A stretch of 64,000 bases of DNA, taken from contig JAGASD010000022.1 in NCBI GenBank assembly GCA_017621885.1, positions 1-64,000 of the forward strand. Direction: 5' to 3'. This document shows positions 49,799 through 64,000 of the stretch, piece by piece. Origin of the DNA: Clostridia bacterium (GTDB taxonomy: Bacteria; Bacillota; Clostridia; Oscillospirales; Acutalibacteraceae). The translations under genes were made by a program, and so were the position numbers. The notes under the pieces were generated by a model that was not told the DNA's origin, did not search any database, and saw nothing but the letters and a program-made list of their open reading frames with translations. Position 1 is the first letter of the stretch. Each line of letters begins with the position of its first letter.

Positions 49799-50236
49799 TT
49801 GAATAATACAGATTATAAAAATTTAGTTCACAGCACAACACCAAAATCACCCAACTTAAAAAACTGCATAAAAGCATTTGTTTTCGGTGGTAGCATTTGC
49901 TGTTTTGGTCAGGTTTTAAAAACCCTTTACGGACTAACGGAGCTTAACGAGGACGAAATTAAGCTTGCAGTTTCAACCACCCTTATTGTTATAACAGCAA
50001 TTCTTACGGGTGCAGGTGTTTTTGATAATATAGCAAAGCACGCAGGCGCAGGTACCGCAGTCCCCATTACAGGCTTTGCTAACTCCGTTGTTTCCCCTGC
50101 GGTGGAATTTAAATCCGAAGGGTTTATTTTAGGTATGGGCGCAAAGATGTTTAACCTTGCGGGACCCGTTATAGTTTTCGGGTGCTCTGCCGCGAGTGTT
50201 TATGGGCTGATTTATTGGATAACACAAATAATATAA
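49799..50236 (+). CDS. spoVAC: Stage V sporulation protein AC
   Basis: SpoVAC is an inner forespore membrane protein of the channel that moves dipicolinic acid. The 145-aa protein has four predicted hydrophobic stretches (AFVFGGSICCFGQVL, VSTTLIVITAILTGAGVF, and two in the C-terminal half) and the conserved HAGAGTAVPITGFANSVVSPA segment (about 81-101). Start is a TTG at 49799; the upstream AAAGGTCGTG is a moderate box. SpoVAD normally follows directly; here a convergent gene intervenes. Confidence 0.9.
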   Translation: MNNTDYKNLVHSTTPKSPNLKNCIKAFVFGGSICCFGQVLKTLYGLTELNEDEIKLAVSTTLIVITAILTGAGVFDNIAKHAGAGTAVPITGFANSVVSPAVEFKSEGFILGMGAKMFNLAGPVIVFGCSAASVYGLIYWITQII

Positions 50237-50277: not shown

Positions 50278-51192
50278 TTAAACTGCTATTGCCGACGCAA
50301 TTATGACAGAAATAAATGCACTAATAAATGAGCCTATTTCTGCAATCCCCCAAAACTCGACCACACACATTTCGTCAGATTTGCACGATAAACGATCTTT
50401 GATGTTCCATAAAATTATGCTTGAAGCAATCATATGAAGAGTTAACGGTATAATACCAATAATTAACCAATCCGTAATAAAAGCAAAGATAATATTTAAA
50501 ACCGTGTATATTAAATGAAAAATGGTTGTTGTTTTGAAATAACTTTTTATAATTTTTGCTTTACGATTCCCAAAAACAACTGTTTTCTTTACAGCATTGT
50601 AGCCCTTCTTACTTTCAAAAAAGATACAAACACCAATACCTACAGCACCTATAAATGCTAACGGTGCTAAATCGAATATATGATACCACCAAGGCCGACT
50701 TACAATTATTTCTAATGTACTGTTTGCGGACGCTTTATATACCTGAAACTTATCGAAATAATAGTCCCCCTCTATATAATGTTCGATATTTTCTTCTTCC
50801 TCGTTATAATTCAAATCCGAGTTTTCTTCGTTTTCAAGTGCTAAAAATGAACCGTTTTCAGAATCATAAATATATGCATCTTCATCATAAATTATCAGTT
50901 TATCATCTTGCAATACAAAATAGGAGTTGCGCATATACGGAGTAGCTACACACCATAGGAATTCACCACTTTCGGTGTATACATTTACACAGTTGGCATC
51001 GTTATAGCACACATAAATTTGCTTTAAATCTTCATCATAAAGAACAGTATCTATTGTGTCCGGAACAAATGATTCGGGTTGTATTTCCTTATAACTATCG
51101 TTACTGCGAGTACAGAATACACGACCAAACAACCCCAAAGCAATACCGAAAGCAAACAGAACAACAGAAACAGAAAATAATATTTTTTTCAT
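50278..51192 (-). CDS. Membrane protein of unknown function
   Basis: The 304-aa protein has an N-terminal signal-like membrane segment (KKILFSVSVVLFAFGIALGLF), an outside domain (about 30-170) with alternating strands resembling a beta-propeller blade pattern (YVCYNDANCVNVYTESGEFLW), and four C-terminal hydrophobic segments (about 175-300). I do not recognise the family. It is transcribed against spoVAC and spoVAD, splitting the usual spoVA operon. AAGGGCGG precedes the ATG at 51192. Confidence 0.7.
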   Translation of the reverse strand: MKKILFSVSVVLFAFGIALGLFGRVFCTRSNDSYKEIQPESFVPDTIDTVLYDEDLKQIYVCYNDANCVNVYTESGEFLWCVATPYMRNSYFVLQDDKLIIYDEDAYIYDSENGSFLALENEENSDLNYNEEEENIEHYIEGDYYFDKFQVYKASANSTLEIIVSRPWWYHIFDLAPLAFIGAVGIGVCIFFESKKGYNAVKKTVVFGNRKAKIIKSYFKTTTIFHLIYTVLNIIFAFITDWLIIGIIPLTLHMIASSIILWNIKDRLSCKSDEMCVVEFWGIAEIGSFISAFISVIIASAIAV

Positions 51193-51315
51193 AACCGAAC
51201 CGCCCTTTCATACCACGTTTATTATATCACAAATAAAAATCCGCTTCAATTATCGGGGTATAAATTTTTAAAAAATGCAAACAATTAGAACAGATTTATA
51301 TAAAGGATGTATACT

Positions 51316-52056
51316 ATGCCTGAAATAAAAGGTTTCAATACAGTTGTTCTTAAAAATAAACCATCAATAATCGGATACGCTGCAGCAGTTGGTAAAAAAG
51401 AGGCGGAAGGACCGCTCGGAGAATATTTTGATAAAATTTATCAAGATGAATTTTGCGGTGAAAAGACCTTTGAAAAAGCCGAAACACATTTGCAAAAAGC
51501 GGCAATCGAAACAGCTTTAAAAAAAGCAAAATTAAGTAAGACCGATATACAATGTGCTTTTGCAGGCGACCTTTTAAACCAATGTATAGGCTCCTCTTTC
51601 GGTATGCGCGATTTACAACTCCCCTTTGCGGGTCTTTACGGAGCCTGCTCCACAATGGCGCTTTCCCTTGCTTTAGCAGGAATTCTTGTAGATTCGGGTG
51701 CGGCAAAAAATACGGTTGCCGCCGCATCTTCACATTTCTGCTCTGCAGAGCGACAATACAGATACCCCCTTGAATACGGCGGTCAGCGTTCCCCTGCGGC
51801 ACAGTGGACTGTTACGGGTGCAGGCTGTGCTGTTGTAAGCGACCAAAAAGCCGAAAATGCTCCGCAGATTGAAAAGGTTATTATCGGTGCTGTGCGAGAT
51901 TTGGGAATCACCGACATAAACAATATGGGTGCGGCGATGGCACCTGTTAATGTTAAACTAAGACCATATACAAAAGGTATGGTCTTTCTACACAATCAAT
52001 TTCAAGAAAGGAGACACATTAAACAAAATGAATGTAACATTTACACATCAGCGTAA
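51316..52056 (+). pseudogene. spoVAD: SpoVAD, truncated by an inserted element
   Basis: SpoVAD is a thiolase-like protein that binds dipicolinic acid during spore formation; the normal length is about 338 aa. The N-terminal 210 residues align with the family by eye (AGDLLNQ, FAGLYGACSTMALSLAL with the thiolase-like Cys, AERQYRYPLEYGGQ, DLGITDINNMGAAMAP). Immediately after Ala-Pro (about 51945) homology stops and 36 unrelated residues lead to TAA at 52056. The missing C-terminal third is not in the window. AAAGG lies upstream of the ATG at 51316; an earlier ATG overlaps that box. This looks like the left junction of an integrated element. Confidence 0.85.
51936..51950. other. Probable left attachment junction inside spoVAD
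   Basis: Conserved SpoVAD sequence ends at GATGGCACCTG (51936-51946) and non-homologous sequence begins. In intact relatives the frame continues with Ala-Ala-Ala after Ala-Pro. The junction is inferred from protein homology only; the second junction lies outside the window. Confidence 0.65.
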
Positions 52057-52067
52057 ATGTTACATTC
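51961..52067. repeat. Inverted repeats next to the attachment junction
   Basis: AGACCAT/ATGGTCT (51961-51985) is followed by a perfect 15-bp pair, GAATGTAACATTTAC and GTAAATGTTACATTC (52030-52044 and 52053-52067). They start 15 bases inside the presumed junction and could be recombinase binding sites or terminators. Confidence 0.6.
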
Positions 52068-52584
52068 GTTTCGTTAATACTAATCACATACATTAAACAC
52101 TATAGGTATTTTATTATACAGGTTAAATAAAAGCCTAAAAACTTCGCTTGCTAAAAGTTTGCAACTCACATGTCGCCTTTAAACACCAATGCAAACGCTT
52201 CTATAACACGAGTAAGTAAAACTATAAAAACACGTACATACAATTATAAAATACATATGCTGAGGAAAGTTAACACATAACAACCGTCCTTATAATAATA
52301 TAAAGCAAGTGTATTGTTTTTAAAATAACAACTACATATCCACACAAAAAATTATTCTATTCACAACTAAACAATGTTATTTATTTGATTTTTTTAGTTG
52401 ATTTTTTTAGTTGATTTTTTTAGTTGATTTTTTTAGTTGATTTTTTTATTAGACCTTTTCATCAATTAAAAGTTTCTTAACATTATTATAGTGTTCTTTG
52501 TCCGTCATAACCAGTACTACAATGGCTATAGTTGCTATGAGCGAGATGATTGATATCAAACAAAGCTAAAACACAATACTACAC
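52068..52584. other. Non-coding AT-rich stretch with 13-bp tandem repeat
   Basis: No convincing gene is seen in this 500-base stretch. At 52385-52449 a 13-base unit (TTGATTTTTTTAG) is repeated five times, the last unit diverged. A 36-codon TTG-started frame on the minus strand (52449-52559) has no ribosome binding site. Confidence 0.6.
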
Positions 52585-52657
52585 GGGGCATTAACTCAAC
52601 TGAGATGAGTGTTTGACTAACAGCCAAGAGATCAGGGTTCGCCCCTATGCTCCACCA
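52585..52657 (+). tRNA. Degenerate tRNA-like sequence ending in CCA
   Basis: The 73 bases fold into an acceptor stem GGGGCAT/ATGCTCC with ACCA, a D-arm ACTC/GAGT, and an anticodon arm with loop CTAACAG (would read AAC). The T-arm is short: AGGG TTCG CCCT lacks about three bases of a normal TTCGAAT loop. The D-loop lacks the GG pair. It could be a decayed tRNA, an unusual tRNA-like RNA or a tRNA fragment carried by the element. Confidence 0.45.
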
Positions 52658-52720: not shown

Positions 52721-53797
52721 TCAGAGTTTTTTATAAAAATTATCACAATAAGTACAAGTTTCTCCACATATTTCATTTGAGCAACGATGTGTCTTGTTTG
52801 AAAACCAAAATTCAAGAAAACCATCAAGTTTTTCATTAAGAATAACAAAAGGTGGTACAAAGAGATCATTATTACAACTTATTGTTTCAAGATGTTTCCA
52901 TAGTTCTAATAAGTTCCCCTCATAATGTTGGCTCATATAAGCCGAAATTATTCGTTTCATATACTCCGTTGAACCAGTCCGACCAGTTAACTTAAAATGA
53001 TTTATACCAATTTGATTATATAAACCCATATCTTCAGGCCGAATAAAATTCGATTTTAACCAGCCAAGTGCATTGTTTCTGCTATTTATACAACGTTGCA
53101 TAGGGTAATCATCAAAGTACACATCATTCACATCATATCCTAGGGAATGTAGCTGATAACAATGTGTTCGATATATACAATCAGTATAAGAGCAATATCC
53201 ATCATAACAAGTTCCGTTTATACAAAATTCATTCGCCAAGAGTGATAAGACTATTTCGTTACTATTACAATAATTTGATAAATTTTCCAAGAAAGTAATA
53301 TCTCTATTTCTACTTAAGTTCCCACATAATTTATTAACATTGTAATATTCTTTCCAAAGCTTTACCTGTGTAACAGTATCTATATTGGCAATTGTACTTA
53401 TTTCTATGTTTACTTCGTCACTTAATTCCCTTATAAACTCAGCCATTATCGGTAGGGTTATCGTGATTGTTTTTACACCACAATCCATAAGAAATCTAAT
53501 ATAATCTTGAATTGTTTTTTTTATTTTAAAGATATCTTTTTTGTTTCCAAGACAAGAAGTGTTTAATGTATAGTTAAAACCAATATTGTTTTGTTGTAGT
53601 TTTTCAATGTGTTTTCTAAACTCGTGTCTAGAGACATCTGGTATCCTAAATGCAGGTCTGGCAGTTAAAAAGCTACTTTCTTTTCTGGAACCATAAACCT
53701 CGTAGATTTTGCTTTTTTGACAACAAAGGTTTTGCTCTATTAGGAAATCCAATAAATCATAAGTGAAGTTGTATCCCACTTTCAAATGTTCCACCAT
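52721..53797 (-). CDS. U32-family iron-sulfur protein (peptidase U32/TrhP/UbiU-like)
   Basis: The 358-aa protein has the U32 barrel pattern (KVGYNFTYD near the start, YEVYGS, ITITLPIMAEF, STIANIDT) and a cysteine-rich centre (CINGTC, GYCSYTDC, RTHC, about 205-228) like the [4Fe-4S] ligands of this family, then IRPEDMGLYNQIGINHFKLTGR. Known relatives hydroxylate tRNA uridine (TrhP), 23S rRNA cytidine (RlhA) or ubiquinone precursors without oxygen. ATG at 53797, nine bases after GGAGG; an ATG six bases earlier is too close. It overlaps the preceding gene and ends the cargo operon. Confidence 0.8.
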   Translation of the reverse strand: MVEHLKVGYNFTYDLLDFLIEQNLCCQKSKIYEVYGSRKESSFLTARPAFRIPDVSRHEFRKHIEKLQQNNIGFNYTLNTSCLGNKKDIFKIKKTIQDYIRFLMDCGVKTITITLPIMAEFIRELSDEVNIEISTIANIDTVTQVKLWKEYYNVNKLCGNLSRNRDITFLENLSNYCNSNEIVLSLLANEFCINGTCYDGYCSYTDCIYRTHCYQLHSLGYDVNDVYFDDYPMQRCINSRNNALGWLKSNFIRPEDMGLYNQIGINHFKLTGRTGSTEYMKRIISAYMSQHYEGNLLELWKHLETISCNNDLFVPPFVILNEKLDGFLEFWFSNKTHRCSNEICGETCTYCDNFYKKL

Positions 53798-54572
53798 ATC
53801 CATTCACCTCCATTGTAAAACCATTTCTACTCCATAGCCATAATGGAGTATGAATATCTATCGGACACAAGGAAGTACCCTCAAATATATATGCCCATTG
53901 CGAGCTGACAAAATCTCTAATATCGCTTCTTTCAAGATCAGTGTCGTTGATTAATCCTAAAACCTTACTTGCTTGTAATACATGTGTATCGGGAGCAACT
54001 GATATTTTTTCTCTGTCGATGAAATGTATATCTGAATATTGTTCAATGACATATAGCCAATAATTTCTTATTTTTTCTCCCGATATATAAGGAAAGGATT
54101 TTTTATTAGAAAGCATATATGATTTTATTCTATCTACTGAAAAGTCATTGTATGAAATAAAATTACGCACACTTCCTTGAAATTGAATTGCTAGTGTTTC
54201 TGAGATTTTCATCCAAATTTCTGGATGTTTATTGGGTTGAAGCGCCACTTTATATTTAAGAAGATGTTGGCGTAATTCATTAATCGATAAGTTGCAAACA
54301 TCGTTTGGAGAAAAAACAACATTTGTAGTTTCATCTTCATATGTAGTTTTTGCTGCTTCCCAAAGCTTATAAGAGTTTCTTTGATAATTAAGAGCCATTG
54401 GAAGGGTAAAGTATAATAAGTTTTCCTCAGAGCATAAATCCAAATGAGGATTTGAGTCTTCAGGCATTGTTTCACCCCCAAGTTCTCCTTTTTGGTACAG
54501 ATCAATTAATTTTTCTGCTACCAATAATATCTCATCTTTCTTTTTTTTATCAAAACTGATGGTTTTTCCCAT
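53757..54572 (-). CDS. HhH-GPD-like protein, possibly a DNA-glycosylase or base pyrophosphorylase relative
   Basis: The 271-aa protein is mostly helical. ISGEKIRNYWLYVI (about 165-178) takes the place of the hairpin of endonuclease III, and SVAPDTHVLQASKVLGL (about 192-208) resembles the VDTHV...LG catalytic-Asp segment of HhH-GPD glycosylases. CPIDIHTPLWLWSRNG (about 238-253) lies near the end. No Lys for lyase chemistry and no Fe-S cysteines are evident. Phage base-hypermodification enzymes of the aGPT-PPlase type share this fold, so a base-linked role is possible. GGAGG precedes the ATG, one base after the previous gene's stop. Confidence 0.55.
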   Translation of the reverse strand: MGKTISFDKKKKDEILLVAEKLIDLYQKGELGGETMPEDSNPHLDLCSEENLLYFTLPMALNYQRNSYKLWEAAKTTYEDETTNVVFSPNDVCNLSINELRQHLLKYKVALQPNKHPEIWMKISETLAIQFQGSVRNFISYNDFSVDRIKSYMLSNKKSFPYISGEKIRNYWLYVIEQYSDIHFIDREKISVAPDTHVLQASKVLGLINDTDLERSDIRDFVSSQWAYIFEGTSLCPIDIHTPLWLWSRNGFTMEVNGYGGTFESGIQLHL

Positions 54573-54573
54573 T

Positions 54574-55830
54574 TTAATCCTCCTTATAAAAAATAGCTAC
54601 AGTTACCGTTTCAAGATCTTTGTAATCAATACATCCTTTTTCTGCTGCAATGGTTATTGCAGAAGAAATTTCGTTTGTAAGTAAGCCAGCTTTAATAGAA
54701 TTTGCTGAAACCAACTGCAATCCAATGTCTCCCATAAGCTTTATTAATTCATCTATAGAATATGTGAAAGAAAAGACTTCAGCAGTTTCACCAGAATCTA
54801 AAACAAATATTGTTTTGTCTCCTTTTGAAGCACTTCCTCTTAACAATGATGCCCATTGCTTTGCTGGTAAAGAAAAAGCCAAGTAACCCCCAGATTTTAA
54901 TAATCTAAAAAGTTCACAAATTGCTTCGGGATAAAAATAAGGATCTCCTAGAGAACAAACGATAACATCAAATGATTCGGCTGGATAAGGTATACAACGA
55001 ACACTTGTAATTATTTTACTTGTAGAGCCATTTATATTAGACATTTCTTTTGAAATGTCAGCAAAACAATACTGTTCACAAGTAGGCGTTACTACCTCAT
55101 ATAACCACCCTTGACCAGGACCTATTTCTAAAACTTTGCTATCAGCTTTTACATAATCATAAAAAAACTTCTTAAAGAACGACGCGGAAAGTTCATGGAA
55201 ATTTCTTGTTGTTATTCGTTTTTCTTCTGTAAAATACTTTGCAACTTTATTATACCCTACCCTATTTATATAATCAACAAATCCTGTTCTGGGAAAGGCA
55301 TCACAATATCTTAGGTATGTAGAAATCTTATTGTGTAAATATTCTGCATTTTTTTCGATTGATGCACCATGATCATTATAAAAAATAATATCAAAGTCAT
55401 CTTCACATATTGAATTATAGTATTCAGCATCTTCGTCATTACGCGTTGATTTGATGGGTTGAGATTTAAGTAATATTGAAATAACATTATCTTTTAAGAG
55501 CTGATTAATTTTTTTATGATTTTGAGGGTGGATTTCTTTTATCAAAAGGATACCATCTTTTAAATTTTCCAAAATAAAGTCACGTCTCATTCCATAGTAA
55601 TTTCCATAAACTTTATCAATGTTGAGAATTTCTCCTTTTTCTGATAAATCAAAAAACTGCTCAGATGATATAAAGATATACTCATTATTAGTTTCTTCAG
55701 GGCGTTGTTTTCGGGTTGTATAGGATATAGGGCGTAAATAAACATCTGGATACATTTCTATTAGTTTATTTATTAAAGTTGTTTTTCCACTTCCACTTTT
55801 TCCGCCAATTAAAATTAACTTCGAGTTCAA
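54574..55830 (-). CDS. Guanylate-kinase-like domain fused to SAM methyltransferase
   Basis: A 418-aa fusion. Residues 1-190 are a guanylate-kinase-like P-loop domain: LIGGKSGSGKTTLINKL (Walker A), SYTTRKQRPEE (nucleotide-monophosphate-binding segment as in GMK) and an EYIFISSEQF segment. Residues about 230-418 are a class I methyltransferase: VLEIGPGQGWLYEV (motif I), FDVIVCSLGD (motif IV region) and LLKSGGYLAFSLP (post-motif). Start is TTG at 55830 with AAGGAGG 6 bases upstream. A free-nucleotide kinase joined to a methylase suggests modification of a nucleotide (inference). Confidence 0.8.
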   Translation of the reverse strand: MNSKLILIGGKSGSGKTTLINKLIEMYPDVYLRPISYTTRKQRPEETNNEYIFISSEQFFDLSEKGEILNIDKVYGNYYGMRRDFILENLKDGILLIKEIHPQNHKKINQLLKDNVISILLKSQPIKSTRNDEDAEYYNSICEDDFDIIFYNDHGASIEKNAEYLHNKISTYLRYCDAFPRTGFVDYINRVGYNKVAKYFTEEKRITTRNFHELSASFFKKFFYDYVKADSKVLEIGPGQGWLYEVVTPTCEQYCFADISKEMSNINGSTSKIITSVRCIPYPAESFDVIVCSLGDPYFYPEAICELFRLLKSGGYLAFSLPAKQWASLLRGSASKGDKTIFVLDSGETAEVFSFTYSIDELIKLMGDIGLQLVSANSIKAGLLTNEISSAITIAAEKGCIDYKDLETVTVAIFYKED

Positions 55831-55842
55831 GATAGTACCTCC

Positions 55843-56589
55843 TTAATGTGAAATAAAAACAATATTTTTATTTGATTTATTAATACAAAATGCACAATTT
55901 GCACAGTTAGCAACTAAATTGTATTGTTCTGGACAAATCAAGAAATCTTTTTTATTTTTATACATAGCAATCTCGCTAATTTTATCTACTGTTATGCTCA
56001 TTTTTAGGTTGGGTTTTTGATGCATTGAAGAATCATAAGACGCAAATAAGTTAACATTTTCAAGAGATGAAAGTTCGTTTATTGAAGGTTTTAATTCAGG
56101 GACAGCCCAAGAACGCGTGTATCCCCAAAAATTAACATTACTCAGTTTTTTACATATACTAATCCACATATCAATGTATTCTATTGAAAAAAAGTCACCA
56201 CTCGAATGTAGTCTAACAGCTATTTTTTTCTCCTTATTATCAAGTATTTGATTAATAATATCTGTTTCTAATTTTTTTGGTTCATTTATTGTATACCACC
56301 AGTTTTCACACCAAAGTTCTATATTATAAATATTCGACCTTAAATCCAAATTGTAACAATGAGTATGACACCATGAAGAAGCTCCAGGACATGTAACACA
56401 TGGTGGTAGATTCCATACGTATACTACATCAAAAAACTTGCCAGTAGTACCCGTTTTTGTATTTCCTTCCTCTAAATGCCAAATAGTTGATCGAGTGGGC
56501 TTTTGTGGTGATAGTTGTATAAATTTTTCAAAAATATTGTTTCGTTCTTTCTGTTTGTTAAGATCTATTCCTTTGCGTTTGAGTTTCAT
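55843..56589 (-). CDS. Gp88-like cysteine-rich protein
   Basis: The 248-aa protein resembles the phage Gene-product-88 family as I recall it: LPPCVTCPGASSWCHTHCYN (about 61-80) with four cysteines, IAVRLHSSGDFFSIEYIDMW (about 122-141), FWGYTRSW (about 152-159), SYDSS, and a C-terminal CPEQ, CANCAFC cluster. The cysteine spacing suggests an iron-sulfur or zinc site. Biochemical function unknown. CGGAG lies 7 bases before the ATG at 56589; an in-frame ATG 18 bases upstream precedes the box. It is 12 bases from the kinase-methylase gene. Confidence 0.65.
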   Translation of the reverse strand: MKLKRKGIDLNKQKERNNIFEKFIQLSPQKPTRSTIWHLEEGNTKTGTTGKFFDVVYVWNLPPCVTCPGASSWCHTHCYNLDLRSNIYNIELWCENWWYTINEPKKLETDIINQILDNKEKKIAVRLHSSGDFFSIEYIDMWISICKKLSNVNFWGYTRSWAVPELKPSINELSSLENVNLFASYDSSMHQKPNLKMSITVDKISEIAMYKNKKDFLICPEQYNLVANCANCAFCINKSNKNIVFISH

Positions 56590-56749
56590 TGCGTTTCTCC
56601 GTTGCATTGTGTTTTAGCTACTGTAGCATATATTATAATGTTACATATCTATAAGATACATTTTTTTGATTATTGTGGTAATTATCCAGCAAATGTTTAT
56701 AGTACCTCTATTAGGCTTTTTTAGTTGCAAAAGTTTTTGGTGCAAAAAT

Positions 56750-57754
56750 TTATTTGTATATTGGAAACCCACACCAAGCAGCCAGTTGATTTTTATGACC
56801 GTTATTAGTGATAAAGAATTCCAAAAACTTGCCATTATTATTTAAATATTTTTCATATATTTTTTTATCAAAATCGTCATTTTTTTTAGGTAATCTATTT
56901 ATGATAATTATTACATCATATTTGGGAGGATTTTGCTCATAAAACAGTTCTTGTGTTACAGATTGTAATTTTAAAAGATTTTTAAATGTTGGCGTAATTA
57001 AATGATCAGTTCCTGCTTGTACCAATAAAACATCTTTATTTTTAAAAAATTCAGCCATTTTGATGCAACATGACTCAATTAATTTTTTTCTTATTACCGA
57101 AAAAATACTCAACCCTATTAAAAGTACGATAGTCATAATTACAAATAGAAATATAATTAAATCTGTAAGTACAACATAAAAAACAACGGCCACGATTATT
57201 ATGAGGATTTTGTGAATATCCTTCTTATGAACTCCTAAATCGGTAAATGGGATTACAAAAAAATGAAAAAATTTTCTTGTGCGATTAACTTTGATTGCTT
57301 CGTGGTTTATATTTTTGAAAAGGTCTTCTAACGGAACAACAAAACCTATATAAAGAGAAAGACTACTAACAGTCCAACTCAAATAATTGAAACTTTGACT
57401 CTTTGTAAAATACAATAACAATGATACAATAGCATTAAGCAACAAAGTCAAGCAAAAAACACTTGAAATTTGCTTTGATGTAACAGCTGTTGTATCATCT
57501 GATTTTATTACCAATTTCGGAATTACTATTGATGTAATGAAGAGTATAATTGTATATAATATCAACATTATAAAGTCTTTTATAAAGTCTTTTAGTTCAA
57601 AAAAGGATAATAAAGAGCTTCCCACATAATATATTGATAAAATAACTAGTGAGCTTAAGATTATCCGCATAATGTTTTCAAACTTTATACCGGAATACTC
57701 TCCTACATCCTTTTTATACATATAAATGTCACGATTTTGTTTACAAGTTTCCAT
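56750..57754 (-). CDS. Membrane protein of unknown function with cytosolic C-terminal domain
   Basis: The 334-aa protein has about seven hydrophobic segments between residues 28 and 225 in pairs, then a soluble C-terminal domain (about 230-334) with DVLLVQAGTDHLITPTF and PPKYDVIIIINRLPKK, reminiscent of a nucleotide- or signal-sensing Rossmann-like strand order. Family not recognised. GGAGG precedes the ATG at 57754. A 160-base gap separates it from the Gp88-like gene. It has the low GC of the neighbouring cargo. Confidence 0.65.
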   Translation of the reverse strand: METCKQNRDIYMYKKDVGEYSGIKFENIMRIILSSLVILSIYYVGSSLLSFFELKDFIKDFIMLILYTIILFITSIVIPKLVIKSDDTTAVTSKQISSVFCLTLLLNAIVSLLLYFTKSQSFNYLSWTVSSLSLYIGFVVPLEDLFKNINHEAIKVNRTRKFFHFFVIPFTDLGVHKKDIHKILIIIVAVVFYVVLTDLIIFLFVIMTIVLLIGLSIFSVIRKKLIESCCIKMAEFFKNKDVLLVQAGTDHLITPTFKNLLKLQSVTQELFYEQNPPKYDVIIIINRLPKKNDDFDKKIYEKYLNNNGKFLEFFITNNGHKNQLAAWCGFPIYK

Positions 57755-57833
57755 AATTATCCTCCAATACTTTAAGTTTTATATTTAATTTATACTGTAA
57801 GAGTTGGAACAAGTTACTGCGTTGTTACACAAC

Positions 57834-58058
57834 TTAATTTTCCTCTTCTTTATTTCTATAACCCTCAATTCTCTTAATCCACTCTTCTTTTTCTTCAGGA
57901 GTTAATTCTCCTAGTGGTTTACGCAATATCCTTGCTGCCTTAGATGCATAAAACAGCAATTCTATATTATCTTTATGTAAAGGATTTTTGCCTATCCTCA
58001 TCATAGTGGCTTTCTTCAAAACAAAAGCTGCAAATGAAAATACTGCATTTTTAATCAT
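57834..58058 (-). CDS. Small hypothetical protein
   Basis: A 74-aa protein with an N-terminal amphipathic segment (MIKNAVFSFAAFVLKKATMM) and a charged C-terminal helix (ELTPEEKEEWIKRIEGYR). GGAGGTG lies 8 bases before the ATG at 58058. Not recognised; probably an accessory gene of the integrated element. Confidence 0.6.
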   Translation of the reverse strand: MIKNAVFSFAAFVLKKATMMRIGKNPLHKDNIELLFYASKAARILRKPLGELTPEEKEEWIKRIEGYRNKEEEN

Positions 58059-58153
58059 CTTAAATGCACCTCCATATATATATGACTAAAAATTCAAAAT
58101 ACTTCACAAAATTTTTCGAAAATATTTAAAATCGTGAAATTCGACAAAAAACG

Positions 58154-58194
58154 ACACCGTGTTTCGTGCAACTACGACAATACGGTGTTTTTTT
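58154..58194 (+). terminator. Terminator or attenuator ahead of the plus-strand operon
   Basis: ACACCGT/ACGGTGT with inner CGT/ACG and a following T7, 80 bases before the first start codon. It can end a short leader RNA or serve as an attenuator. Confidence 0.7.
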
Positions 58195-58275
58195 ATATAT
58201 ACCCATATGAAAGGAGTTGGTGATAAATATGAATCACCCATAAATTTTAACAATAATTAATAGGAGTTGATTTTA

Positions 58276-58578
58276 ATGAATTTAGGTAAAAAGCATCCAA
58301 GATTGATTGGTATGTCAGATCGTGACGAAAGAGAACTAAACTCTATTGAAGAAGTTGCAAAATATATATGTGAAAAAGGTGTGTCAGGTGATGTAACAAT
58401 TACATACGAAGACGGAACTCCGTTCTTAAACACCTTCGGAATATATATTGATAGGATTTCTGATATGGAGTATCGTTCAGAATTGTTAAAAGTCCTTATT
58501 CCTATGCAGAAAGCATTGGACGGCACAGAAGATTTTGGTGATCCCGATGACTCTGAAGATATGGGAATCGAAATGTAA
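58276..58578 (+). CDS. Small conserved-looking element protein
   Basis: A 100-aa acidic protein (GEDFGDPDDSED-like tail). Start ATG at 58276 with TAGGAG 9 bases upstream, chosen over a TTG nine bases earlier that overlaps the box. The middle (DVTITYEDGTPFLNTFGIYID) looks beta-rich. Not recognised; it lies 15 bases before the DUF4314 gene and is probably part of the same operon of the conjugative element. Confidence 0.65.
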   Translation: MNLGKKHPRLIGMSDRDERELNSIEEVAKYICEKGVSGDVTITYEDGTPFLNTFGIYIDRISDMEYRSELLKVLIPMQKALDGTEDFGDPDDSEDMGIEM

Positions 58579-58593
58579 AAGAGGTGAAATTTT

Positions 58594-58887
58594 ATGAGCT
58601 CATTTGAGAATATGTCACGATATGCAGAACGAATGCAGAAGCAGTATCCCGAAGGTACTCGCCTTTTGTTGAACAGCATGAATGATCCTTACGCTCCTGT
58701 TCCACCCGGTACAAGAGGTACAGTTAACTTTGTAGATGATGCTGGGCAAATTCATATGAAATGGGATAACGGTAGAACACTTGCAATCGTTCCCAGTGAA
58801 GACGATTTCAGAAAGCTCACCGATGAAGAATTGGCAGAAGAATCTGAAATCGAAGAAGAATCAGAAAATTTTGAACAAACAATGTAA
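58594..58887 (+). CDS. DUF4314 domain protein
   Basis: The 97-aa protein matches DUF4314: PPGTRGTVNFVDDAGQIHM (about 36-54) then WDNGRTLAIVPSEDDF, an SH3-like small beta-barrel found in conjugative elements of Firmicutes. Acidic C-terminal tail. GAGGTG precedes the ATG. Function of the family is unknown. Confidence 0.88.
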   Translation: MSSFENMSRYAERMQKQYPEGTRLLLNSMNDPYAPVPPGTRGTVNFVDDAGQIHMKWDNGRTLAIVPSEDDFRKLTDEELAEESEIEEESENFEQTM

Positions 58888-58916
58888 AAAGAGGTGTTAA
58901 AAACTAAATAATCAGA

Positions 58917-60041
58917 ATGGTCGGATGCCGTATGGCAATCCGATTTTTTGATATGTTTGCAGGTATCGGTGGTTTTCGTACAGGATTAACTAAAATAGGA
59001 GGTTTTGAGTGTGTCGGTCATTGTGAAATTGATAAATACGCTAATGCAGCGTATTGTGCGATGTATAAAACCGGGGGTGAGCAATATTATGAAGATGCGC
59101 GAGAAATCGACCCCCAAAATCTCCCCAACTTTGACCTGCTCTGTGCAGGATTTCCTTGCCAAGCTTTCAGCGTTGCCGGAAAGCGAATGGGATTCAGTGA
59201 TACAAGAGGAACTCTCTTCTTCGATGTTGCCCGAATCCTTGAAGTTAAAAAACCTGCATTTGTATTCTTGGAAAACGTTCAAGGTTTGTTATCGCATGAC
59301 TCAGGCGAAACACTTAAAACTATCTACTCCGTGCTTGTTGAAATGGGGTATAATCTCGAATGGTGTGTGCTTAACAGCAAATATTTCGGAGTCCCCCAAC
59401 AAAGACGGCGGTTGTATATTATCGGATATCTTGATGGACGATGTACCGGACAAATATTTCCTGTCGAATGCTGCAATGGAGCGAATCTTAAAGAAATCAT
59501 CCCCGGCAGTCAAGGACAGAGAGTCTATGACATAACAGGTGTTTCTTGTACATTGTGTGCAGGTGGCGGTGGTATGGGTGGAAAAACAGGATTGTACTTT
59601 ATTGATATGAATAGTGATCCTATTATCACTCCCCAAGCACGATGCATAACTGCACGACAAGATTCAGGTGTAAGCAATCGCAAAGGAGAACACTCAGGTG
59701 TGTTGGTAGAAGATGCTCCGAGAGCAATATTGACACCCGACAGAGAAAAGGTTCGTCAGCAAGGCAGACGGATGAAAGAACCAAATGAGGAAATGTTCAC
59801 AATAACTGCTCAAGATAGACATGGCGTTTATCATAAGGGCAGAATCCGTAAGCTTATGCCCATTGAGTGTTGGCGTTTGCAAGGGTTTGAAGACAAACAA
59901 TTTAATAAGGTTGTCGCATCTGGTATTAAGGATGGACAGTTATATAAGATGGCTGGTAACTCTGTGAGTGTACCGGTCATTTCTGCTATTGGCAGAAAAA
60001 TAAGAGAAGTTAATGAAAAATATCAAATTGTAAAGGAGTGA
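58917..60041 (+). CDS. DNA (cytosine-5) methyltransferase
   Basis: A 374-aa type II-like orphan C5-methylase. Motif I FFDMFAGIGGFRTGL (about 10-24), motif IV GFPCQAFSVAGKR (about 78-90; catalytic Cys), motif VI ENVQGL (about 117-122), motif VIII QRRRLY, and motifs IX-X at the end (LQGF, AGNSVSVPVI). No restriction endonuclease gene is adjacent. ATG at 58917 or at 58932 (MAIRFF) are both possible. It may protect the element from host restriction. Confidence 0.93.
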   Translation: MVGCRMAIRFFDMFAGIGGFRTGLTKIGGFECVGHCEIDKYANAAYCAMYKTGGEQYYEDAREIDPQNLPNFDLLCAGFPCQAFSVAGKRMGFSDTRGTLFFDVARILEVKKPAFVFLENVQGLLSHDSGETLKTIYSVLVEMGYNLEWCVLNSKYFGVPQQRRRLYIIGYLDGRCTGQIFPVECCNGANLKEIIPGSQGQRVYDITGVSCTLCAGGGGMGGKTGLYFIDMNSDPIITPQARCITARQDSGVSNRKGEHSGVLVEDAPRAILTPDREKVRQQGRRMKEPNEEMFTITAQDRHGVYHKGRIRKLMPIECWRLQGFEDKQFNKVVASGIKDGQLYKMAGNSVSVPVISAIGRKIREVNEKYQIVKE

Positions 60042-60045
60042 TAGT

Positions 60046-61116
60046 ATGCCGAACCATGTTACTAATCGTATCAAGTTTTCGGGTGATCCCGAAAGAATCA
60101 GAGCGATTATGGAAGGTATAAAACACGATGAAATGGGTCTTGGTTCTGTTGATTTCAACAAGATAATTCCTATGCCTGAATCATTGAATATTACAGCAGG
60201 TTCGATTACAGATAAAGGTCTTAAAGCATATAAAGACTTTGTCTCTGTTCTTTTATTTGATGGTGCAAACAAAGGAATTGACCTTCTGAATATTCCCGAA
60301 GAAAAAGAAGCTATCTTCTTAAAACAAAGAACAGATATTAAAGAAGACGAGTGGTCAGCAGGTCGTCAGGCTTTCCGTAACATTCAGCAGTACGGTTTTC
60401 CTACATGGTATGAATGGAGTATCAACAATTGGGGTACAAAATGGAATGCCTACGACTGTATTGAAATTGAAGGTACATCAGAAGAACAGTGTGAACTCTG
60501 TTTTAATACTGCCTGGTCTGCTCCACATCCTATTCTGTCAAAACTTGCGCAGATGTATCCCGATGTTGAAATTGAACACGAATGGGCAGACGAGGACTTC
60601 GGTCATAATCTTGGTAGAGTAAAGTACAAGGGTGATACAATTCTTGAAGAATATATACCCAAAACAACGAAAGAAGCCTATGAGTTTGCCTTAAAGGTTC
60701 ACGGATATGAAGATATGGAAACTGTTGGTCTAACATTGAATTTAACTGAAACCGACTATATTCCTATTTGGCATGAAGAATTATCTGCTGTTCAGTTTCA
60801 GGATAAGGTCTTTTTGTTCTCTGAAAGCAGAAAGACTGCAGCTGATGTTCCTAAAGGCTTCTACTGTTATGAATGCAGAACAAGTGATGACCAAAGCTTT
60901 TTGGCAACTCTTGAACCGAATGTAAAAGTAAACTACGGTGGTACTCTCATTACGGATGAACCGATTGAATTCGGAGAAAAAGGCTATATAGACCTTAAAA
61001 AAGAACCAATTTTATTCCCCGATATTGACGAGGTGTCTTTTGAAAGGTTTATGAACGATAAGGCAGAAATTGAACAGGAAATGGTAGGTGCAGAAAGTTG
61101 TCAGTTAAGTCAGTAA
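60046..61116 (+). CDS. YubB-like ferredoxin-fold and LPD domain protein
   Basis: The 356-aa protein starts with MPNHVTNRIKFSG, typical of the DUF1281/YubB ferredoxin-like N-terminal domain, includes WYEWSINNWGTKWNAYD (about 122-138), also typical of that group, and ends in a beta-rich region (about 215-330) like the LPD28 large polyvalent protein domain of mobile elements. The AAGGAG box lies before the ATG. It follows the Dcm gene by four bases. Its function is unknown; such proteins are usual in conjugative elements. Confidence 0.75.
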   Translation: MPNHVTNRIKFSGDPERIRAIMEGIKHDEMGLGSVDFNKIIPMPESLNITAGSITDKGLKAYKDFVSVLLFDGANKGIDLLNIPEEKEAIFLKQRTDIKEDEWSAGRQAFRNIQQYGFPTWYEWSINNWGTKWNAYDCIEIEGTSEEQCELCFNTAWSAPHPILSKLAQMYPDVEIEHEWADEDFGHNLGRVKYKGDTILEEYIPKTTKEAYEFALKVHGYEDMETVGLTLNLTETDYIPIWHEELSAVQFQDKVFLFSESRKTAADVPKGFYCYECRTSDDQSFLATLEPNVKVNYGGTLITDEPIEFGEKGYIDLKKEPILFPDIDEVSFERFMNDKAEIEQEMVGAESCQLSQ

Positions 61117-61691
61117 ATACAGAAGAACTTCGTAGTATGTCCAATACCGAAGGTCTTGTGTTGCAGGGATGTGGTGGTGAACTAAAAGAATGGATTGACG
61201 GCATCAACGGTCTGTTTAAAAGAGCTGGTATTCTTCTTGAAGACTGCGAATTTAAAGAGGATGACTGTTATACATTCAAAAATGGTGACCTCACATGTTT
61301 ACTGTTTCCTTTCGATGAGGATATTCAAGTCGATTTAGGAAAAATGGCAATGTGGCGTTTGCAGACACATCAGGAGCTTGGCGGTACTTGGTTTTCGGAC
61401 TATGTGGATAACCGTCTCGGTGGTTTTATTAAAGAAAATGAATCACCCGAAGAAAAGGCTAAACCCGATTGTGCTTTGATTGGTGAAGATGGCAATATTT
61501 TCAATCTTATGGGTATTGCATCAAGAACTTTAAAAGAACATGGTATGGCTGATGAAGCTAAAGAAATGTGCGAACGAGTACGAGAATCGAGCAACTATTA
61601 TGAAGCTCTCGGTGTAATTGGTGAATATGTAAATATCACCTCCTCCGAAGATATGACCGAAGATGAAAGTGAGGAAATTGCATTACAATGA
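61098..61691 (+). CDS. Hypothetical element protein
   Basis: A 197-aa acidic protein. The frame begins with TTG at 61098, overlapping the previous gene by 19 bases; an ATG at 61137 (MSNTEGLVLQG) is an alternative start. Sequence EWIDGINGLFKRAGILLEDC looks like a small alpha/beta fold, and it lacks membrane segments. It overlaps the DUF3789 gene by four bases, so it is in the element operon. Not recognised. Confidence 0.65.
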   Translation: MSVKSVNTEELRSMSNTEGLVLQGCGGELKEWIDGINGLFKRAGILLEDCEFKEDDCYTFKNGDLTCLLFPFDEDIQVDLGKMAMWRLQTHQELGGTWFSDYVDNRLGGFIKENESPEEKAKPDCALIGEDGNIFNLMGIASRTLKEHGMADEAKEMCERVRESSNYYEALGVIGEYVNITSSEDMTEDESEEIALQ

Positions 61692-61831
61692 GTGAAATCC
61701 TTGCATTTATCATAGGTGCTATGTTAAGCAGTATAGTAACTACCACAGCGATGTGTTGCGTTTTTATAAACAAAAAGAATTACTATGAAGAAAAAATCAT
61801 AGAACTTAAAAAATCAAATAAGCAAGAGTAA
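61688..61831 (+). CDS. DUF3789-like small membrane protein
   Basis: A 47-aa protein with one transmembrane helix (ILAFIIGAMLSSIVTTTAM, about 4-22), a Cys-Cys pair, and a basic tail. The size and pattern fit DUF3789 proteins of Firmicute conjugative elements. Its ATG overlaps the stop of the previous gene (ATGA). Confidence 0.75.
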   Translation: MSEILAFIIGAMLSSIVTTTAMCCVFINKKNYYEEKIIELKKSNKQE

Positions 61832-61874
61832 GACGGTATTTATCACAAAATGATGAATACCGTCTTTTTTTATG
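61832..61874 (+). terminator. Terminator after the small membrane protein gene
   Basis: AGACGGTATT, loop, AATACCGTCT followed by TTTTTT. A strong intrinsic terminator inside the element. Confidence 0.92.
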
Positions 61875-61894
61875 CCCAAAAGTGAGGTGATTCA

Positions 61895-62872
61895 ATGAAA
61901 ACCCCTGTATCAAGGGTTGGTAACAAAAGTTCAATACTCAACATTCTCTATGCTGTATTTCCTTTACAGTACGGCAGATTTGTTGATGTGTTCGGTGGTT
62001 CCGGTAGCGTCCTTCTGGGAAAAGAGCAGGTTGACTCCTTCGAGGTTTACAATGACTATGACAGGAATTTGGTAAACCTTTTCCATTGCATGAAGGAACG
62101 AACTATGGCAACAATTCGTGAAATCGGCTTTTGCAATCTTAACTCACGTGAGGATTTTAACTCTGTTAAAAAGTTCTTTGAGTTTGAAGAATTCAAAGAT
62201 GATTTTTACAGAGAAGAATTACTGTTGACAGAACTGATGTTTCCACCCCCCGAAGCAAATGAACTTAATGAAATAAGAACTCGTATTACTAAAGACTATG
62301 ATGTCCGTAGAGCAGCAATGTTTCTCAAACTCTTACGATACAGTTATTCAAGCGGCTGTAAGTCTTTTGCATCACAGCCATTTGATATACGAAAGTTGTT
62401 TGAACTTATAAAACAACTTGAAAACAGAATGGCAAATGTAGTGGTTGAAAACCAGGACTTTGAAACGCTTATAAAGCACTACGACAGACAGGATACTTTT
62501 TTCTATGCTGATCCCCCATATTTTTCTACTGAAGATATGTATGCTGTAGGCTTTAATTGGAGCGACCACGTGCGCTTAAAGGATACACTTTCCAAAATAC
62601 AAGGTAAGTTCTTGCTTTCATATAACGATTGTCCTGAGATAAGGGAACTGTACAAAGGCTTTTCTATGCTTGATTTTTCTCGTACTCATTCTATGGCACA
62701 AAGGTACGAAGCCGGAAAAGAATTTAAAGAGTTGCTTATATCAAACTATGACTTATACGAAAGAGAACGAAGCAAACCACAACAGTTAACCTTATTTAGT
62801 TGTTGTGATGACAAGTATGATTATGAAAAAGTATTAAAGGAGTGTATTGTCCAATGCAGAATTCAGAGTTAA
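61895..62872 (+). CDS. DNA adenine methyltransferase, D12 class
   Basis: A 325-aa N6-adenine methylase. VFGGSGSVLLG (about 32-42) is motif I, ADPPYFSTEDMY (about 207-218) the catalytic DPPY motif IV, and FLLSYNDCPE follows. GNKSS near the start is the family's N-terminal motif X. Target not predictable (Dam-like enzymes methylate GATC). No restriction partner adjacent; with the C5-methylase the element carries two methylases. GAGGTG precedes the ATG. Confidence 0.93.
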   Translation: MKTPVSRVGNKSSILNILYAVFPLQYGRFVDVFGGSGSVLLGKEQVDSFEVYNDYDRNLVNLFHCMKERTMATIREIGFCNLNSREDFNSVKKFFEFEEFKDDFYREELLLTELMFPPPEANELNEIRTRITKDYDVRRAAMFLKLLRYSYSSGCKSFASQPFDIRKLFELIKQLENRMANVVVENQDFETLIKHYDRQDTFFYADPPYFSTEDMYAVGFNWSDHVRLKDTLSKIQGKFLLSYNDCPEIRELYKGFSMLDFSRTHSMAQRYEAGKEFKELLISNYDLYERERSKPQQLTLFSCCDDKYDYEKVLKECIVQCRIQS

Positions 62873-63015
62873 ATCAAGATAGTATTTTTCTTTCTATACC
62901 TCTTGAAGATTTTGAGAGTTTAAACATTTCAGTAGAGAGAGTCCGTTCGGTTCGTTCGGGTATAGGAACATTACATATTAAAATAACAAACAACGAAAGC
63001 GAGGTTGAAAACTGA
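62854..63015 (+). CDS. Small hypothetical protein
   Basis: A 53-aa protein starting at 62854, overlapping the end of the Dam gene by 19 bases and preceded by AAAGGAG. Its stop shares a base with the next ATG (TGATG). Read as MQNSELNQDSIFLSIPLEDF ... SEVEN. Not recognised. Confidence 0.65.
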   Translation: MQNSELNQDSIFLSIPLEDFESLNISVERVRSVRSGIGTLHIKITNNESEVEN

Positions 63016-63320
63016 TGGCAAAAATATATCGTGTGCTCGGTAAAAAAGGAAGGGTTACAATTCCTTTTGAATTGAGGCAGTCCGTAGGTTTTAAATATAA
63101 CGATATTTTATCATTTACTGAATCTGAGGACGGAAGTTCAATAATTGTTAAAAGAGAAAAAGTTTGCGATAACTGTAAGCTAACTGATTCATCTCAAATA
63201 GATGAAATGACTTTATTTGATTTTCTGAATGAGCTTCCCATTGAACAGCAAAAGGCTGCACTTGTCCATCTTTCAGTTAAATGGGCAATGGAACAGGCAG
63301 GTGTTAATCTTGAAAAGTAA
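63015..63320 (+). CDS. AbrB/SpoVT-type DNA-binding protein
   Basis: A 101-aa protein with the swapped-hairpin AbrB fold at the start (LGKKGRVTIPFELRQSVGF, about 8-26; YNDILSF), which in the family binds DNA as a dimer. A CDNCKL segment follows at about 54, a possible metal site in combination with further residues. The C-terminal helix is unique. Probably a regulator of the element. Good coupling to the previous gene (TGATG). Confidence 0.85.
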   Translation: MAKIYRVLGKKGRVTIPFELRQSVGFKYNDILSFTESEDGSSIIVKREKVCDNCKLTDSSQIDEMTLFDFLNELPIEQQKAALVHLSVKWAMEQAGVNLEK

Positions 63321-63444
63321 TATCTTTCAAATTAATAATGAACGAGATGCCGCTGATATCAAGTTTATGAACTTTGACAGAACGGCACGAATTCAGAAAA
63401 CAGACAAAATAAAGCCTAAAATAATATTCGTCAAAACACATTGA
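63310..63444 (+). CDS. Possible small element protein
   Basis: A 44-codon frame from a TTG at 63310 (GGCAGGTG upstream) overlaps the AbrB gene end and stops at 63444. The sequence NERDAADIKFMNFDRTARI and a basic KPKIIFVK end look protein-like and resemble short proteins seen in other elements. Start is uncertain; low support. Confidence 0.4.
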   Translation: MKSNIFQINNERDAADIKFMNFDRTARIQKTDKIKPKIIFVKTH

Positions 63445-63492
63445 CAAAAGCATTAAAGAAGCTTGAACAAAAATACACAAAAGGTGGTAGCA

Positions 63493-64000
63493 ATGGATAA
63501 ATATGTTCCTCTGTATCTCTTTTCTTTAAAAGAAGCCAAAGAATATGAAGAAATCGACAAATGGAGAAAGAGTCATAGTGCCAACTGTGATTGTGCAAGA
63601 ACTATTGAACGCGCAATACGAGATAACTATAAAAACAATGTTCTTGAAAAGTGCATCAACGATATTGTAAAAGCCTATGGACTTGACAGAGTTAATTGGG
63701 TTTTGGCAAACACCATACAGCAGAATAAAACGGATGGTCGTTTTTCAGAAGACAACAAGAAATGGGCAAAAGATATCTGGATTCCGAGAGAAGAACATTG
63801 TTGGCAGTTTGTCGTTGATTCACATCCCGGTTTGGTAGATTTATTTGTAAACCAAGCAAGAGCTTACTATAAAGATTTAGGTCTGTTCGATTCAAGTCAT
63901 TGTACTGATGAAAAAGACTATGCAGGTAAGGTTTTGGTTATCACACCAAGAACACTTAAAGACGAGTATAAGACTGCTGATTTTCAGTTGTTTTTTGCGA
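63493..64000 (+). CDS. DUF3849-like element protein (partial)
   Basis: The reading frame starts with ATG at 63493 (GGTGGTAG upstream) and runs off the right edge after 169 codons. MDKYVPLYLFSLKEAKEYEEIDKWRKS at the start is split here only for reading: the family shows KYVPLY, a DKWRKSH segment, and the HCWQFVVDSHPGLVDLF region (about 118-134). It matches DUF3849 of Firmicute conjugative elements as I recall it. Function unknown. Confidence 0.75.
   Translation, partial: MDKYVPLYLFSLKEAKEYEEIDKWRKSHSANCDCARTIERAIRDNYKNNVLEKCINDIVKAYGLDRVNWVLANTIQQNKTDGRFSEDNKKWAKDIWIPREEHCWQFVVDSHPGLVDLFVNQARAYYKDLGLFDSSHCTDEKDYAGKVLVITPRTLKDEYKTADFQLFFA

Follow-up and report, generated by a model that had tools for sequence, protein, structure and literature searches.

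The question raised by this locus is what interrupts its spoVAD gene, which in the window (the whole stretch of DNA analysed, 64,000 nucleotides) loses its resemblance to SpoVAD part way through the reading frame, and whether the gene is ever made whole again. An initial annotation of the window placed an abrupt end of SpoVAD homology near position 51945 and attributed it to an integrative element, a candidate for the kind that is excised in the mother cell during sporulation, an interpretation that is partly supported by the analysis described here. It is highly probable that the window contains the attL end of an ICE inserted by a large serine recombinase at a fixed site in spoVAD, the CC of the Pro codon of the MGAAMAP motif; that excision is programmed or selected is possible but doubtful.

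A spoVAD gene that breaks off at a proline codon

In a profile search, the SpoVAD family PF07451 matches window 51316-52053 over profile positions 3-206 of 329 (E 1e-85), and PDB SpoVAD (3lma) is matched no further than residue 207 of 347. Three NCBIfam SpoVAD models match the frame over approximately the first two thirds, with scores under their own cut-offs. Past ATG GCA CCT (51937-51945) the frame lies outside the SpoVAD match and continues to a stop at 52056, while the GC content drops from 0.40 at 51-52 kb to 0.28-0.32 across the following 6 kb. The truncated spoVAD is confirmed as a real observation, with the break at the CC of the Pro codon of the conserved MGAAMAP motif (51943-51944), just before the position given in the initial annotation. 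The features of the locus are as follows, in window coordinates.

49799..50236, plus strand: spoVAC, the upstream partner gene of the spoVA locus (Pfam SpoVAC_SpoVAEB, E 2.2e-39)
50278..51192, minus strand: gene between spoVAC and spoVAD (304 aa ORF, no Pfam match)
51316..51944, plus strand: spoVAD 5' part up to the crossover core (PF07451 3-206 of 329; PDB 3lma)
51943..51944, plus strand: attL crossover core CC (from the sequence, and from attL against attR in 24 relatives)
51945..51968, plus strand: attL arm, element-derived, TGTTAATGTTAAACTAAGACCATA (identical in G009, similar in many other split genomes)
51962..51984, no strand: inverted repeat GACCATA / TATGGTC just inside attL (from the sequence)
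51945..52056, plus strand: read-through tail of the truncated spoVAD frame (ORF 51307-52056; profile match ends at 206)
52022..52075, no strand: 23-nt inverted repeat, 91% complementary, with an 8-nt loop (from the sequence)
52721..63999, no strand: left part of the element within the window (Pfam, ORFs, and identity to the element of G018)

A profile search of the organism's own genome (G000; 64 contigs, 94% complete) found no second SpoVAD above the family cut-off, and thus no full-length copy of the kind that the initial annotation had named as evidence against an interruption. Matches on contig C43 and at C7:90305 were considered as second copies and rejected, with E values of 0.019 and 0.26, under the family cut-off. 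The initial annotation had also expected a recombinase and the remaining half of spoVAD at the far end of the element; neither was found in G000, where the window's contig (C7) ends at 94,512, but the spoVAD 3' half lies beside a recombinase, of the serine type, in two congeneric genomes.

The same cut in the genus and the family

Among 22 genomes of the genus that were searched, 18 have an intact spoVAD, three (G000, G009 and G018) are cut at position 206, and one has no match. A scan of species genomes, of which the best 80 loci were considered, returned at least six loci at which spoVAD is cut at the Pro codon and gives way to other sequence (L037, L038, L046, L065, L080 and L105), as well as one, L034, that ends one base beyond this codon. 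In L046 (JAFRCW010000034.1, from approximately 10606 onward), the same-codon cut is followed by an unrelated arm, GCTATTGTCAAGTAGGAACAATAC, which perhaps belongs to another recombinase lineage at the same spoVAD site.

SpoVAD was found in 346 of 398 genomes of a family sample, and 35 of the 346, distributed over 21 genera, are split at the same Pro codon, so that about 1 in 10 of the sampled species of the family carries a split spoVAD, a figure that applies to one family sample and one selection rule. The genomes followed, 42 in number, were chosen by eye for weak best E-values among the family's SpoVAD matches, and junctions were read in the fetched stretches. More split copies may exist, since of the genomes with an intact copy and extra matches only G331 and G272 were looked at. 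Both parts of the gene could be paired in 24 of the 35, with attL alone in seven and attR alone in four; G201, classed with the attL-only genomes, has two attR fragments as well. The 35 leave out G140 and G264, whose contigs end within a frame that shows no element arm; G205, with an empty site and an assembly fork; G331, with an intact copy and two attR sites; G301, whose contig ends at the core and in which the 3' half was not found; G034, G035, G220 and G050, with partial matches; and G133 and G228, with weak partial matches.

All sequences compared are assemblies, and the split cases that could be identified are metagenome-assembled genomes. Most spoVAD halves lie on separate contigs of draft genomes. 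An assembly chimera or a contig-end artefact, in place of an insertion, would account for this distribution and for the absence of the 3' half from the window's own genome. However, the window's cut is not due to chance, because the family sample contains another 30 genomes in which spoVAD breaks off at this codon and element arms come next, mostly like those of the window. With the same codon and element arms in 31 genomes that have attL, an artefact is extremely improbable, and it is already contradicted by G158 and G330, in which both halves and the element are on one contig. The claim that an integrative element interrupts spoVAD is upheld; in the window, foreign DNA follows the cut.

Attachment sites and predicted restoration of the reading frame

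The attL site reads ATG GCN CC and then, in the window, TGTTAATGTTAAACTAAGACCATA, whereas attR of type A reads TATGGTGTACCCTTGACATTTACC and then CCN GCN GC, with arms that differ by type. When the two parts are joined at the shared CC, one open, full-length, in-frame SpoVAD is predicted in all 24 paired genomes, the join reading MGAAMAPAA, and no spoVAD half among the 42 followed genomes contains an internal stop. The bases flanking CC on both sides differ between attL and attR in G009, which places the core at CC. A direct repeat of the junction, GATGGCACCTG, had been proposed; no repeat of that length exists in the common types, where attL and attR share CC only, extending to CCTG in some, a short core as expected for a large serine recombinase. 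Around CC, the attP arms are imperfect inverted repeats of each other, with a mean of 15.5 of 24 matches against 7.2 (s.d. 0.4) for simple shuffles; the score of the host site around CC is 10.7 of 24. In types D and E (genera g73 and g22) the inverted repeat is weaker, at 9-14 of 24, and the core is less certain because attL and attR share most of ATGGCNCC. One genome, G084 (L174 and L152), has an attL of type B and an attR of type C, which suggests two elements in tandem within one spoVAD.

Excision would be unnecessary if the shortened SpoVAD, or its two parts translated separately, were functional, and a 3' frame could indeed start at TTG ACA TTT in attR. The cut, however, falls within a single Pfam family and removes approximately 120 profile positions, and functional parts are very improbable.

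The junction expected of an excised circle, attP, was sought with the pattern CTTGACATTTWCCCCNNNNRATGTTA, which covers the common arm types only and not types D and E; it was found in none of the 398 genomes, not in IMG/VR, and in none of 187 loci, so that no assembled circle bears out the developmental excision envisaged initially. An empty site is present in G205, where the 5' contig ends ...GCACCTG and shares exactly 141 bases, presumably the assembler's k value, with the start of a contig that runs into the uninterrupted gene. This overlap suggests that the de Bruijn graph forked exactly where the crossover lies, with empty and occupied sites coexisting, although the occupied branch of the fork was not found in the bin, and the fork could be a mixture of strains.

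A motif like TATGGTC-TTTCTACACAA, at window 51978-51995, inside attL, recurs in inverted orientation at the recombinase promoter in some elements (L129, L130, L144, L146, L134 and others). The score of the inverted form is higher than in any of 60 shuffles for five of 11 genomes, of which four are near-identical and of type B, but not for the remaining six, among them both type A relatives, G009 and G018. A regulator site common to attL and the recombinase promoter is only a suggestion.

A recombinase clade and a candidate directionality factor

The elements recovered in relatives encode large serine recombinases of the TndX/TnpX type that make up a discrete clade. Eleven full-length recombinases adjoin att sites and share 60-100% identity with one another, and the five relatives' proteins that were scanned all have Resolvase, Recombinase and zinc-ribbon domains and exceed 500 aa. 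Their nearest PDB sequences are TnpX, the best match, and YokA, and the identity to TndX is 36%. In recombinase domains, the TnpV gene and mobilisation genes, the spoVAD elements resemble those of TnpX and TndX, the Tn4451 and Tn5397 types; unlike these, the spoVAD recombinases form a separate clade with another target, tied to one site in a coding sequence.

At E<=1e-150, with at most three candidates scored per genome, the clade is found in 15 of the 398 genomes, 14 of which have a split spoVAD. The fifteenth, G331 (L191, L192 and L198), has an intact spoVAD and two contigs that each carry a recombinase, an attR and a divergent 3' part; these extra copies may be paralogues or foreign contigs, both being possible. 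Conversely, 21 of the 35 split genomes have no recombinase at this threshold, though three of them (G355, G031 and G201) show fragments, and in several split genomes without a match the contigs end close to the junction.

Directly upstream of the recombinase, in all 14 loci viewed (several of them near-identical), is a frame of one type, 82-111 aa in length, and all 10 of these frames that were scanned match DUF6870, a Pfam family of unknown function. From its adjacency and size, the DUF6870 protein is proposed as a candidate recombination directionality factor; the term DUF6870 is not used in the literature matches listed for DUF6870 and recombination directionality factor. The recombinase promoter, read by eye, looks sigma-A-like (TTGAAA - 17 bases - TACAAT in type B), and no promoter of a sporulation type was recognised, also by eye.

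Content and spread of the elements

The element of the window spans 51,945 to at least 94,512; its left end, attL, is in the window, and a right end is seen only in congeners. Within the window its cargo, by Pfam, includes U32-peptidase-like, guanylate kinase/methyltransferase, GP88, DNA methylase and Api92-like proteins, and further along contig C7, at 68-93 kb, are a relaxase, a coupling protein and secretion ATPases (MobL, T4SS-DNA_transf, TraG P-loop and T2SSE). By content, therefore, the element is an ICE, because it encodes a relaxase, a coupling protein and secretion ATPases. Several smaller features accompany the left end: a tandem array of the unit TTTTTTAGTTGAT with 13-nt spacing (52364-52467, just inside the element); a tRNA-like sequence (52585-52654, plus strand) that scores 31.5 bits with the Rfam tRNA model (gathering score 29) and for which ARAGORN gives no call; a 12-nt inverted repeat after this sequence; and, in the cargo (54574-55830, minus strand), a guanylate-kinase-like domain fused to a methyltransferase domain.

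Window 57,834-83,831 is shared with the element of G018, at 98.2% identity over 18.6 kb and 93.0% over 7.4 kb (26 kb in all), and the spoVAD 5' parts of the two genomes differ at a dS of approximately 1.4. The same ICE has therefore moved horizontally between congeners, because its copies are 93-98% identical while the genes that they interrupt are far more diverged. On another contig of G018, the recombinase ends 98 bases ahead of the spoVAD 3' part, and the missing right end of the window's element should be like this one.

The whole insertion is on a single contig in G158 (approximately 11.8 kb) and G330 (approximately 13.6 kb). Both elements encode TnpV, DUF6870 and a 581-aa serine recombinase; NikA/MobC-like and relaxase genes are present in G158, and none were recognised in G330, where the frames were scanned in part. 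In G158, the two parts of spoVAD lie between a SpoVAC gene, on the 5' side, and a gene of the SpoVAC/SpoVAEb family, on the 3' side, so that the insertion looks to be in the chromosomal spoVA locus. A phage origin was considered for the elements and rejected, as the attL and attR patterns gave no match in IMG/VR; that collection holds one distant (36%) relative of the recombinase, and GP88 was the only phage-named domain noted by Pfam among 17 element proteins scanned.

In the proposed mechanism, a large serine recombinase of the TndX/TnpX type would make the crossover that integrates the element at the CC of spoVAD, and the DUF6870 protein encoded just upstream would be the directionality factor for excision. 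Excision as a circle would restore spoVAD, and hence DPA uptake, and the circle could then reintegrate or be transferred by conjugation. Excision might be timed by sporulation, or might take place only stochastically or when the element is transferred.

Sporulation genes in carriers

SpoIVA was searched for in 68 genomes in all, with controls hand-picked from the family list. It is present in 31 of the 35 split genomes and in all 26 of those that are at least 90% complete, the four without it (G031, G084, G276 and G330) being 69-86% complete. Among the controls, it was found in 20 of 20 hand-picked genomes with an intact spoVAD and in 3 of 10 without SpoVAD; G331, G205 and G301 all have it. 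Thus, as all 26 of the more complete split genomes keep spoIVA, the split state does not accompany its loss. A single-contig genome, G028, has SpoIVA and no SpoVAD match.

In same-genus pairs of split genomes, dN/dS is low for both parts of spoVAD, and the flanks of the elements indicate separate or recent acquisition. Selection on spoVAD while it is split was considered as an argument and dropped, because turnover of the elements looks recent.

Known intervening elements and the compartment problem

Like skin, which splits sigK in B. subtilis and C. difficile, the spoVAD elements divide a sporulation gene, encode a serine recombinase, and would restore the reading frame on precise excision. 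Skin, however, is prophage-like and lies in a mother-cell gene, whereas the spoVAD elements are ICEs or IMEs in a gene that belongs to the forespore in the species studied, and their timed excision is unproven. Similarly, vfbin in spoVFB, vrin in spoVR, SPbeta in spsM and yin in yabG, a mother-cell gene, are described as sporulation-gene elements with att sites inside the coding frame, and spoVFB, which encodes dipicolinate synthase, acts in the same pathway as spoVAD. Unlike the spoVAD elements, these four are presented in the accounts concerned as phage, prophage-like or intervening sequences and not as conjugative (PMC4191935, PMC5595907, PMC10747680). Further descriptions exist of the gerE and yabG elements (PMC5595907, PMC10747680). 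The gerE element of B. cereus, gin, is a non-phage element that splits a sporulation gene and uses a serine recombinase with an extra factor, GirX; it differs in that gerE encodes a mother-cell regulator, in its 9-bp shared core, and in a content described as mostly unknown and not conjugative (PMC5595907). In the open-licence literature, none of the matches listed was found to describe integration into spoVAD; one names spoVAD as cargo of islands (PMC6907783).

The model of excision in the mother cell, which the initial annotation adopted from such elements, does not transfer to spoVAD, because the spoVA genes, whose products import DPA, are described as part of the forespore regulon of sigma-G in both B. 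subtilis and C. difficile (PMC4959285, PMC3789822, PMC5629000). SPbeta, by comparison, is reported to excise only in the mother cell and thereby to be kept, as a prophage, in the genome of the spore, and spoVFB and spoVR are given as mother-cell-expressed (PMC4191935). An interrupted sporulation gene and, in relatives, a restorable frame and an element-encoded recombinase are all seen here as in skin; a target expressed in the mother cell is, according to the literature on these two species, not.

Two readings of the excision step follow. According to the first, sporulation triggers excision in the manner of skin and spoVAD is restored for spore maturation. The exact recovery of the reading frame in all 24 paired genomes, the retention of the sporulation gene spoIVA, and the precedents of skin, vfbin, vrin, SPbeta, gin and yin (PMC4191935, PMC5595907, PMC10747680) speak for it, but no sporulation-type promoter was recognised by eye and, for a gene expressed in the forespore of the studied species, nothing would be gained by mother-cell excision. 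A timed element of this kind is rather doubtful.

According to the second reading, opportunist ICEs and IMEs use spoVAD as a target that is conserved and dispensable vegetatively, their excision is untimed, and spores are defective, or not made, unless the element is lost. This agrees with the horizontal spread and recent turnover of the elements, with a recombinase promoter that is sigma-A-like by eye, and with the consideration that timed excision in a forespore gene would strip the element from the germline. Furthermore, C. perfringens without spoVA is described as making spores that are still stable, but heat-sensitive, and the same source leaves open whether SpoVAD is required in C. difficile (PMC4959285). 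Less easily accommodated are the occurrence of split genes in 35 of 346 genomes across 21 genera, the presence of spoIVA in every one of the 26 split genomes that are at least 90% complete, against 3 of 10 genomes without SpoVAD, and the halves free of internal stops, although recent insertion would explain each of these too. On the whole, opportunist use of the site is somewhat favoured.

Implications

The published intervening elements that were found lie in mother-cell genes; since the mother cell dies, losing the element there does no harm. If spoVAD must be restored, excision would have to take place ahead of division or in the cell that becomes the spore, which predicts that the element is lost, carried along as a circle, or reintegrated. 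A precedent for reversal is active lysogeny, in which a Listeria prophage occupies comK: excision restores the host gene and could be reversed with the element still retained, which is what an element in a forespore gene would require. That case, however, concerns a prophage and a competence gene, and reversibility at spoVAD is hypothetical. It is conceivable, if unlikely, that ICEs and IMEs in spoVAD are intervening elements of the germline compartment, which must leave the forespore chromosome for spoVAD to be restored. They would then stay in the spore as a circle and integrate again once it has germinated, or else each sporulation would cure the cell of the element, to be regained by conjugation. 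Were this so, inheritance of the element would be tied to spore formation, and the spoVAD elements would be the first intervening elements in a forespore-expressed gene among those found.

The element family provides a clade of site-specific recombinases whose attB is defined, together with DUF6870 as a candidate directionality factor. It also raises the question of how the hosts make DPA-loaded spores without losing the element, and a split spoVAD may affect spore resistance and the transmission of gut commensals.
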